DNA of 12,499 nucleotides from Streptomyces griseoluteus. Lineage in GTDB: Bacteria; Actinomycetota; Actinomycetes; Streptomycetales; Streptomycetaceae. A program made the position numbers and the translations under genes. The notes beneath the pieces are model-generated. The model ran no database searches, was not told the origin of the DNA, and was given only the letters and a program-made list of their open reading frames with translations. Below, piece by piece: positions 1 to 1,937 of this stretch (position 1 is its first letter; each line of letters starts with the position of its first letter). Where the stretch lies: contig JOBE01000100.1 of assembly GCA_000717735.1 (NCBI GenBank), positions 1 to 12,499 of the forward strand, given 5' to 3'.

Positions 1-187
1 CCGGGCTCGCGGGGCCCGGCACGCGCGCTCGCCGCGTTGTCGTCGGTCCCCAACGCTCCGCGTCGACTCCCTCCTCCGCCTTGCGATCACACGCACCAGG
101 CCCCGCTCCCTGATCCGGCCTGATCCAAAAGACAGGCCCTAGGCGGGGGGTGTCCGGGAGCGCCGAGGCCCCCCGCCCCGGGAAACA
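1..187. other. unassigned left edge, no supported gene
   Basis: I see no convincing gene here. On the minus strand an open frame runs from a GTG near position 99 to the window edge without a stop. It is only about 30 codons long, arginine-rich and lacks recognisable motifs, so it could be the start of the next minus-strand gene or chance. The stretch holds a short direct repeat, CCTGATCC at 109-116 and again at 119-126. It also holds a small inverted repeat, GGCCTG at 117-122 against CAGGCC at 133-138 with a 10-nt A-rich loop. These could belong to a promoter region or a weak terminator; nothing in the sequence decides between them. Confidence 0.3.
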
Positions 188-226
188 CCGAGGGCCCCCG
201 TCGCACACGGCGACGGGGGCCCTCGG
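188..226 (-). terminator. strong hairpin terminator after fmdB
   Basis: A perfect 17-bp inverted repeat (188-204 against 210-226) encloses a 5-nt loop. The stem is almost all G/C. It lies 30 bp beyond the stop codon of the minus-strand fmdB gene. Read in that direction the stem is followed by a short T-containing stretch (TGTTTCC). On the plus strand the flank is A-rich instead, so the hairpin is oriented for fmdB, although a perfect stem could act in both directions. Confidence 0.85.
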
Positions 227-227
227 C

Positions 228-254
228 GGAAAAGCCGGAAAAGCCGGTAAAGCG
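228..254. repeat. three tandem 9-bp repeats between fmdB stop and terminator
   Basis: GGAAAAGCC occurs at 228-236 and 237-245, followed by the degenerate copy GGTAAAGCG at 246-254. The array fills exactly the gap between the fmdB stop codon and the terminator hairpin. On the transcribed minus strand it reads as pyrimidine-rich GGCTTTTCC units. No function is evident; a slippage-generated spacer is the simplest explanation. Confidence 0.7.
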
Positions 255-255
255 G

Positions 256-597
256 TCAGGCGGCCGAGCTTCCGGTGCTCGACGAGGACGTCGAGGAGGC
301 GGAAGAGGATGCCGAAGCGGTCGACGCGGCCGGCTTGGCGTCCGACGTCGAGGACGACGAAGAGGCCGAGGACGACGGGGTCGAGGACTTCGACGCGGCC
401 GGCGAGCTGCTGGACGACGAGCCGCGGCTGTCGTTCCGGTAGAAGCCGGATCCCTTGAAGACGATGCCGACGGCCGAGAACACCTTCTTCAGGCGTCCGT
501 CGCAACTGGGGCACTCGGTCAGCGCGTCATCGGTGAACTTCTGCACCGCCTCGAGGCCTTCGCCGCACTCGGTGCACTGGTACTGGTAGGTCGGCAC
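256..597 (-). CDS. FmdB family zinc-ribbon protein with Ser-rich tail
   Basis: This 113-residue protein begins (V)PTYQYQCTECG and carries two CxxC pairs, Cys8/Cys11 and Cys29/Cys32, in the first 35 residues. That is the FmdB-type regulatory-protein zinc ribbon. It continues with the conserved VGIVFKGSGFYRNDSR stretch at about 45-60. After residue 58 the protein becomes an extreme Ser/Ala low-complexity tail ending at TGA. The GTG start at 597 is chosen because AGGAGG lies at 605-610 with a 7-nt spacing and because the family's PTYQYxC begins right there. A GTG six codons upstream (615) would lie inside the operator and has no RBS. The role of FmdB proteins is poorly defined; the name comes from a putative regulator of formamidase/acetamidase genes in Methylophilus. 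The gene has its own CIRCE-type operator and its own terminator, so it looks monocistronic and possibly stress-regulated. Confidence 0.9.
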   Translation of the reverse strand: MPTYQYQCTECGEGLEAVQKFTDDALTECPSCDGRLKKVFSAVGIVFKGSGFYRNDSRGSSSSSSPAASKSSTPSSSASSSSSTSDAKPAASTASASSSASSTSSSSTGSSAA

Positions 598-608
598 TTG
601 TCTTCCTC

Positions 609-635
609 CTGGCACTCACACTCATCGAGTGCTAA
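609..635 (-). promoter_or_regulatory. CIRCE operator (HrcA-binding site) upstream of fmdB
   Basis: On the minus strand the sequence reads TTAGCACTC, nine bases, then GAGTGCCAG. The CIRCE consensus is TTAGCACTC-N9-GAGTGCTAA. One half is 9/9, the other 7/9, and the 9-nt spacer is exact, so 16 of 18 consensus positions match. The second half overlaps the first bases of the fmdB Shine-Dalgarno sequence, and the element sits 12 bp before the GTG start. CIRCE is the binding site of the heat-shock repressor HrcA, which controls groES/groEL genes in Streptomyces. The inference is that HrcA represses fmdB. The promoter should lie in 636-668; a TATGGAT at about 642-648 (minus strand) is a possible -10, but I see no clear -35. 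Confidence 0.8.
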
Positions 636-665
636 CGACGATCCATACTGACGTATTCCGCGGGA

Positions 666-1937
666 TCAGTCCACCGCCACCGGCACGCGGTGACCGATAC
701 CACGTGCCGCGACCCGGCTGGTCTCGCGCGGCCGCAGCCGCGACCGCAGGGCCAGGAGCGTGGCGAGGGCGAGAACGGTGCCCGCCATCGGGACCAGGAA
801 TCCGGCGCTCGATCCCTGGGCGTCGGCGAGGCGCCCGGCGACCGTGACGGCCGCGGCCTGGCCGAGCGCGACGGCGCCGGTGAGCCAGGTGAAGGCCTCG
901 GTACGGGCCGAGGCCGGGATCAGGGTCTCGACGATGGTGTAGCCGGTGATGAGGGCGGGGGCGATGCACAGGCCCACGACCAGGCCCAGAGCGCCGAGGA
1001 GCAGCACCGAGTGCGCGGTCCACAGCAGGGACGCGGCGACGGTGAGGCCGGCGTATCCGAGGATCAGGCGGCGGCGGGGGCCGGTCTTCCAGGCGACGGT
1101 GCCCATGGCGATGCCCGCGAGCATGTTGCCGGCGGCGAAGACCCCGTACAGCAGGCCGTTCGCGCCGGGGTTGCCGATCTCCTCGGTGAAGGCGGTGAGG
1201 GAGACCTGCATGCCGCCGAAGACCGAGCCGATGCCCAGGAAGGCGACGATCAGGACGCGGACACCGGGGATGGAGAGCGCCGAGCGGCGGGGTTCGGCGG
1301 AGGTGGCCGAGGCGGCGCCGAACGCGGGCTGGGTGGCGCGCTGGGCGGCGAAGAAGAGTCCGCCGACGAGGGTGAGGGCGGCCTCGGTGATCAGGCCGGC
1401 GGCCGGGTGGACGCCGGTGCACAGGGCGGTGGCGAGGACGGGCCCGACGACGAACGTGAACTCGTCCGTGACGGACTCGAAGGCCGCGGCCGTCGGCATC
1501 AGCGGGGTGCCGTCCAGCTTGGCGGCCCAGCGGGCCCGGACCATCGGTCCGACCTGGGGCACGGAGGCACCGGCGGGCACGGCGGCCAGGAACAGGGCCC
1601 AGAGCGGGGCGCCGCTCAGGGCGAGCACCACGAGCAGGGAGACGGACGCGGTGTGGATCAGGACGCCGGGCACGAGGACGGCGCGCTGGCCGCAGCGGTC
1701 GGCGAGCTTGCCGCTCTGCGGCGCGAACAGCGCCATGGAGACGCCGGTGACGGCGGCGACCGCGCCGGCGCTGCCGAAGGAGCCGGTGGTGTGCTGGACG
1801 AGCAGGACGATGCCGATGGTCAGCATCGCGAAGGGCTGCCGGGCGGCGAAGCCGGGGAGCAGGAAGGACAGCGCACCGGGGGTGCGCAGAAGCTGCCCGT
1901 AGCCGGGTCGCTTGTCGTAGTTGACCGTGGACGCCAC
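666..1937 (-). CDS. MFS transporter, substrate unknown
   Basis: This 423-residue, strongly hydrophobic protein has the length and pattern of a 12-helix major facilitator permease. Hydrophobic segments recur from about residue 20 to 400. The MFS motif A in the loop after helix 2 is visible as GKLADRCGQR at 76-85. The N-terminus (MASTVNYDKRPGYGQLLRTPG) is short and cytosolic. The GTG start at 1937 is supported by AAAGG about 8 nt upstream, and the next in-frame options would cut into helix 1. The gene lies 68 bp upstream of fmdB on the same strand, but the CIRCE promoter region between them suggests fmdB can be transcribed separately. Upstream, 265 bp separate it from the antiporter gene. Nothing nearby indicates what it exports or imports; a drug- or sugar-type efflux role would be guesswork. 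Confidence 0.88.
   Translation of the reverse strand: MASTVNYDKRPGYGQLLRTPGALSFLLPGFAARQPFAMLTIGIVLLVQHTTGSFGSAGAVAAVTGVSMALFAPQSGKLADRCGQRAVLVPGVLIHTASVSLLVVLALSGAPLWALFLAAVPAGASVPQVGPMVRARWAAKLDGTPLMPTAAAFESVTDEFTFVVGPVLATALCTGVHPAAGLITEAALTLVGGLFFAAQRATQPAFGAASATSAEPRRSALSIPGVRVLIVAFLGIGSVFGGMQVSLTAFTEEIGNPGANGLLYGVFAAGNMLAGIAMGTVAWKTGPRRRLILGYAGLTVAASLLWTAHSVLLLGALGLVVGLCIAPALITGYTIVETLIPASARTEAFTWLTGAVALGQAAAVTVAGRLADAQGSSAGFLVPMAGTVLALATLLALRSRLRPRETSRVAARGIGHRVPVAVD

Follow-up and report, generated by a model that had tools for sequence, protein, structure and literature searches.

The stretch of Streptomyces griseoluteus DNA analysed here, which comprises 12,499 nucleotides and is referred to below as the window, carries on its minus strand an fmdB-family gene preceded by a sequence matching the CIRCE element, a predicted operator of the repressor HrcA. 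The genes and features surrounding this site, given in the direction of transcription, are:

666..1937, minus strand: MFS transporter gene (PF07690), the upstream neighbour, outside the unit
609..635, minus strand: CIRCE, the predicted HrcA operator, reading TTAGCACTC-GATGAGTGT-GAGTGCCAG in the gene sense (16/18 consensus positions; arms invariant in 87/87 regions of the genus)
605..610, minus strand: Shine–Dalgarno sequence AGGAGG of fmdB, read directly and also present in the rows of the orthologue upstream regions
256..597, minus strand: fmdB-family gene, 113 aa, GTG start at 597-595 (PF09723, TIGR02605 and translation)
186..228, minus strand: 19-bp hairpin 3′ of fmdB, a possible terminator with no T run (−51.1 kcal/mol, z −6.7; ends taken from the dot-bracket string)

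The preliminary description had named an FmdB zinc-ribbon gene as the target of the element, and domain searches bear this out. The product of the minus-strand frame starting with GTG at 597 matches Zn_ribbon_8 (PF09723) and TIGR02605, ‘FmdB family zinc ribbon protein’, the latter scoring 72.5 bits where the cut-off is 31.3. Its N-terminal zinc ribbon has the pattern CxxC-x17-CxxC in the translation, placing cysteines at positions 8, 11, 29 and 32. The Ser/Ala-rich C-terminal tail of about 59 residues is hydrophilic and of low complexity, being composed by direct reading almost entirely of S/A/T/P/K/D/G/R, and its sequence is not conserved among the relatives compared. When solved structures were searched with the FmdB sequence at E values up to 1, no match was found. 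A search of a plasmid collection returned two partial matches, from Tsukamurella and Nonomuraea.

The MFS gene ends at position 666, 68 nt from the fmdB start and on the same strand. A further palindrome, GGTCACCG...CGGTGAC, lies upstream, in the last part of the MFS coding sequence. Because the 19-bp hairpin lies directly 3′ of fmdB, the gene may be transcribed alone. Its neighbourhood is partly common with Mycobacterium: the window contains genes for 5-FTHF ligase, a galU-like product and moeA near fmdB, and the corresponding region of Mycobacterium celatum (named by eye from translations) contains galU, 5-FTHF ligase, fmdB and an mscL-like gene, leaving 5-FTHF ligase and galU as the common members. 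The Streptomyces and M. celatum FmdB proteins are 59% identical over the aligned part, with cysteines at positions 8, 11, 29 and 32 in both.

Scanning the window for TTAGCACTC-N9-GAGTGCTAA with up to three mismatches allowed returned one match only, at 609-635, with two mismatches and a spacer of exactly nine nucleotides; shuffled versions of the window contained 0.01 matches on average (one of 200 shuffles had a match). The 16-of-18 match reported at this position was thereby recovered as the single one in the window. Both mismatches are confined to the gene-adjacent arm, which in the gene sense reads GAGTGCCAG instead of GAGTGCTAA. The element is situated between the candidate promoter elements (634-673, predictions) and the start codon at 597, and its final two bases (610-609) are shared with the Shine–Dalgarno sequence, in agreement with the overlap noted earlier.

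CIRCE in the genome, the genus and the class

The 8.1-Mb assembly (190 contigs) was scanned for further sites. It contains seven exact copies of the core GCACTC-N9-GAGTGC, where about 0.9 would be expected by an estimate from base composition: two at groES-groEL1, two at groEL2 and one each at hrcA, fmdB and an aldo/keto reductase gene. The extended pattern TTRGCACTC-N9-GAGTGCYAA, with up to three mismatches allowed, gave six matches, all with no more than two mismatches, and these correspond only to groES (two), groEL2 (two), hrcA and fmdB; the reversed control gave four matches at the same threshold. When the core was permitted one mismatch, the reversed control (33 matches) exceeded the real pattern (21), so only exact cores are informative and it is these together with gene context that carry weight. 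The genome encodes HrcA (TIGR00331, 336 bits), and with CIRCE at groES, groEL2 and hrcA the chaperonin genes whose control the preliminary description had given as known for Streptomyces carry the element here.

The aldo/keto reductase gene was considered as a further regulon member and rejected. Its core (L006 1501-1521; G000:C88:12031-12051) is exact, coincides with the end of an alpha/beta hydrolase gene and precedes the reductase start by 6 nt; of the six outer bases, not one agrees with the strict consensus, and the site is absent from the extended matches. It probably arose by chance.

Within the genus, FmdB was detected in 147 of 150 genomes, including that of the window, and two of the three misses came from genomes no more than 82% complete. 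Upstream regions were compared for 87 of these genes, made up of 30 loci (the window's own among them) and 57 from the remaining 117, among them the 46 with the lowest scores; three weak second matches that had no fmdB start were left out. The operator arms, with their two mismatches, are identical in all 87 regions, while the spacer bases vary, and the operator is located 9–12 nt from the start codon.

Across the class, an even draw contained FmdB in 186 of 197 genomes and 84 of 90 genera. The operator was assessed in 65 genera, that of the window excluded, with one region each, taken from the listed matches without a locus. At up to four mismatches it was found in 55 of the 65 genera and in 28 of 32 families, a score reached by 0.03% of 3,250 base-shuffled regions, and it was also present in 14 of 15 loci outside the genus that the class search gave directly. 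The same element had been proposed to be sought upstream of fmdB orthologues, and this comparison recovered it in 87/87 regions of the genus and 55/65 genera of the class. In the class sample the distance to the start codon ranges from 10 to 95 nt. In a set of named genomes (at least 80 loci), among the matches listed, 59 of 80 have the operator with up to four mismatches and the other 21 have at least six, and in a control stretch 750–900 nt upstream of 79 of the named loci, again among the matches listed, there were at least seven mismatches in every case. Named Streptomyces loci that are not MAGs carry the operator in 20 of 20 cases among the matches listed. Two MAGs among the matches listed, titled Streptomycetaceae (L159) and Streptomyces griseus (L169), have no CIRCE at genes whose FmdB products are 49–52% identical; the titles of these contigs may be wrong.

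CIRCE is absent from fmdB in 10 of the 65 class genera, judged from one region per genus. Loss of hrcA was considered as the cause and rejected, since all ten genomes retain hrcA above the cut-off. All ten also have CIRCE-like sites elsewhere, with the reversed control matching too in nine of them. The site is thus missing from these genera despite hrcA and CIRCE-like sites, indicating that regulon membership of fmdB is dispensable. The small genome G222 (family f25) has hrcA as two pieces in one frame (G222:C1:1013270-1013977), separated by a gap at profile positions 128-224.

Candidate promoters at the operator

That the operator serves to control fmdB, as first proposed, is supported by these comparisons, but it constitutes only part of the control region, in which a conserved SigR-type promoter motif overlaps CIRCE. 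Four candidate promoter elements were located:

668..673, minus strand: TGGACT, candidate housekeeping-type −35 element with a 17-nt spacer, overlapping the MFS stop codon by one base
655..659, minus strand: GGAAT, −35 element of a candidate SigR-type promoter, 18 nt before GTT
645..650, minus strand: CAGTAT, candidate housekeeping-type −10 element
634..636, minus strand: GTT, −10 element of the candidate SigR-type promoter, sharing two bases with the start of CIRCE

The SigR consensus is given as GGAAT-N18-19-GTT in the available text of PMC9205884 and as GGAAT-N18-GTT in that of PMC2375139. RsrA, the anti-sigma factor of SigR, scores over its cut-off in the genome. Across the 87 regions of the genus the five columns of GGAAT are 95–100% conserved, compared with 46–68% in the six columns before them. 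The exact motif GGAAT-N18-GTT is present in 84 of the 87 regions and the N19 form in one more, leaving two without it, and GTT starts one base before the operator in 83 regions and two bases before it in two; the value for shuffled flanks was 0.002. One region (L049, G022:C165) is the only one in the genus to lack both the SigR-type −35 element and the usual MFS end; its operator is intact, and the locus has probably been rearranged. Beyond the genus, only 4 of 55 class regions have a SigR/SigH-type motif (GGAAT or GGAAC, 17–19 nt, GTT) at the edge of the operator, and the promoter part is therefore limited to certain lineages. Among the matches listed for the named genomes it was found at this edge in 34 of 59 loci, including Nocardia, Mycobacterium, Amycolatopsis and Nonomuraea.

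The housekeeping-type promoter motif, searched for with the commonly known consensus, is present in 85 of the 87 regions of the genus, ending 10 or 11 bases before CIRCE, and abuts the operator in 18 of the 55 class regions (0.004 and 0.003, respectively, in shuffled flanks). The conservation of TGGACT may be partly coding.

The presence of this second promoter raises the alternative that it alone drives fmdB and that GGAAT-N18-GTT is a chance match, CIRCE itself supplying most of the GTT. The SigR-type motif is nevertheless retained in 84 of 87 regions although the six preceding columns vary, far above the shuffled flanks, so that a chance match would be unlikely, even with the housekeeping-type −10 columns conserved too and the motif uncommon at this position among the class regions (4/55). 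Its recurrence at the same edge in the named Nocardia, Mycobacterium, Amycolatopsis and Nonomuraea loci, where GGAAC was accepted as well, and the SigH control reported for the mycobacterial gene ruc (PMC7448276) further argue for a genuine promoter.

Asymmetry of the operator half-sites

The two halves of the operator are not conserved equally. Of the 55 operators in the class sample, 54 have an unaltered gene-side core, GAGTGC, and 25 an unaltered promoter-side core, GCACTC; the other 30 carry one of several different single changes, 25 of them GCAGTC and five something else. Among the matches listed for the named set, the corresponding counts are 56/59 on the gene side and 36/59 on the promoter side. 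In the window's own genus the core of the fmdB operator is symmetric. Class regions cited for the GCAGTC promoter-side half are L221, L222, L225 and L246, and the fmdB operator of Nonomuraea (L132) is of this type too. A count from the table for 12 genomes chosen for GCAGTC at fmdB found this form in none of their 58 other CIRCE-like sites.

The asymmetry suggests that fmdB has a weaker or oriented operator in many lineages, and it could equally result from constraint by a transcription start falling in the promoter-side half. A broader possibility is that membership of fmdB in the HrcA regulon is ancestral in the class, with a tuned, asymmetric operator and a SigR/SigH promoter embedded in one half-site. 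This proposal is tentative. Among the ten genomes without CIRCE at fmdB, two (G174 and G288) have GCAGTC at three sites; the form is thus not peculiar to fmdB throughout, which slightly lowered a confidence that had already been less than even. If true, the redox chaperone would escape repression earlier than groE, and disulfide stress would compete with the repressor wherever the SigR/SigH promoter lies in the half-site (Streptomyces and several Mycobacteriales), such that a single operator would sense both heat and oxidation.

Proposed regulation of fmdB and its relation to known systems

The DNA itself shows a conserved operator, further CIRCE sites in the same genome, promoter motifs and a cysteine pattern, and these make it likely in our view that fmdB belongs to the HrcA regulon, receives a second input of the SigR type and encodes a Ruc-type chaperone. 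According to this model, in unstressed cells HrcA would block transcription by occupying CIRCE, placed as it is between promoters and ribosome-binding site. Heat or unfolded protein would inactivate HrcA and release fmdB together with groES-groEL1 and groEL2, inducing its expression. The SigR-type promoter lying over the operator would, if used by SigR in competition with HrcA, provide the second input, from thiol-oxidative stress, and the housekeeping-type promoter would probably maintain a basal level of fmdB. The FmdB protein is most likely of the Ruc type: reduced, it would be zinc-bound and idle, and oxidation of its cysteines would lead to loss of zinc and to the holding of unfolded proteins for DnaK.

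The assignment of FmdB as a stress chaperone draws on its Mycobacterium tuberculosis relative Ruc, which it probably resembles. According to the available text of PMC7448276, Ruc binds zinc via its cysteines and has little activity when reduced, whereas oxidised Ruc prevents aggregation and promotes refolding by DnaKJE, activity that requires its disordered, hydrophilic tail. In the preliminary description FmdB was a protein of unknown function that would be tied to protein-folding stress; the tie is supported, but for the relative Ruc the function is already known, that of a redox-activated chaperone (PMC7448276). The Streptomyces protein could instead be a zinc-ribbon adaptor or a zinc store, placed in the regulon by a real, HrcA-bound operator and devoid of chaperone activity. 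The same source notes that the zinc ribbon occurs in proteins of highly diverse functions (PMC7448276), and the tail is not conserved in sequence, nor was a solved structure matched at E values up to 1. However, the closest studied relative is a chaperone that needs its tail (PMC7448276). The four cysteines of FmdB, moreover, occupy positions identical to those of Ruc, and we judge a role without chaperone activity to be distinctly unlikely.

Alternatively, the inverted repeat might exert most of its effect in the mRNA, where a 5′ hairpin would affect stability or hide the Shine–Dalgarno sequence, with HrcA binding of minor importance. The repeat overlaps the Shine–Dalgarno sequence and might fold into a stem close to the transcript's 5′ end, and a role of CIRCE in mRNA stability is known elsewhere. 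Several observations make this very improbable: a like sequence is found at groES, groEL2 and hrcA of the same genome; the distance to the start codon, 9–12 nt in the genus, extends from 10 to 95 nt in the class, so the overlap with the Shine–Dalgarno sequence is not the conserved feature; and with GCAGTC as the left core, as in 25 of 55 genera, one base pair of the stem is lost, the opposite arm being constant. A functionless chance likeness to CIRCE, of which about 0.9 exact cores per genome (estimated from base composition) would be expected and the aldo/keto reductase site looks like an example, is already refuted by conservation, with arms invariant in 87/87 regions of the genus and an operator in 28 of the 32 families sampled.

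As the preferred reading, membership of fmdB in the HrcA regulon with a SigR-type second input has precedent in the same class. The preliminary description left it undecided whether a link between FmdB and HrcA had been reported, and for this class it has: in M. tuberculosis HrcA directly represses ruc (Rv0991c), which is induced by SigH from a site overlapping the HrcA site (PMC7448276), and the HrcA targets of that organism are listed as groES, groEL1, groEL2 and Rv0991c in the available text of PMC8223512. For Streptomyces, HrcA/CIRCE is described as controlling groES-groEL1 and groEL2 (PMC2687793), and HrcA targets are given as ‘the groEL genes’ (PMC11754652). Our literature search found no paper joining FmdB and HrcA by these names and no HrcA binding or heat induction of fmdB in Streptomyces; the literature on FmdB in Streptomyces, in the parts available, contained nothing bearing on HrcA control of fmdB, nor did the available text of PMC4921905 and PMC3489674 contain anything on fmdB. 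As far as the literature found shows, control of fmdB is thus supported as new for Streptomyces, the kind of control being already known. A Streptomyces HrcA regulon given as the groE genes alone in the available parts of PMC2687793 and PMC11754652 would gain fmdB and the CIRCE at hrcA. On these data, the joining of a putative redox chaperone with the chaperonin regulon is widespread in the class and no mycobacterial peculiarity, and through its dual-input promoter architecture FmdB might join heat and disulfide stress in protein folding.

Compared with ruc, fmdB encodes a protein of the same family with a hydrophilic, low-complexity tail and the same cysteine positions (C8, C11, C29 and C32 are those of the Ruc mutants named in PMC7448276), and as at ruc, where the HrcA site overlaps a SigH-family promoter, the CIRCE of fmdB overlaps a SigR-type motif. 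It differs from what the available text describes for ruc in that its operator has a symmetric core free of mismatches and reaches into the Shine–Dalgarno sequence, and in having an MFS gene as its upstream neighbour. With the Streptomyces groE system fmdB has in common an operator of the same kind within the same genome; however, the groES-groEL1 and groEL2 promoters each have two CIRCE elements, whereas fmdB and hrcA have one, and fmdB is absent from the HrcA targets named in the parts of PMC2687793 and PMC11754652 available. Finally, the exact motif and 18-nt spacer resemble the SigR (disulfide stress) regulon of S. coelicolor, from which fmdB is set apart by a −10 element that falls partly inside the predicted HrcA operator.
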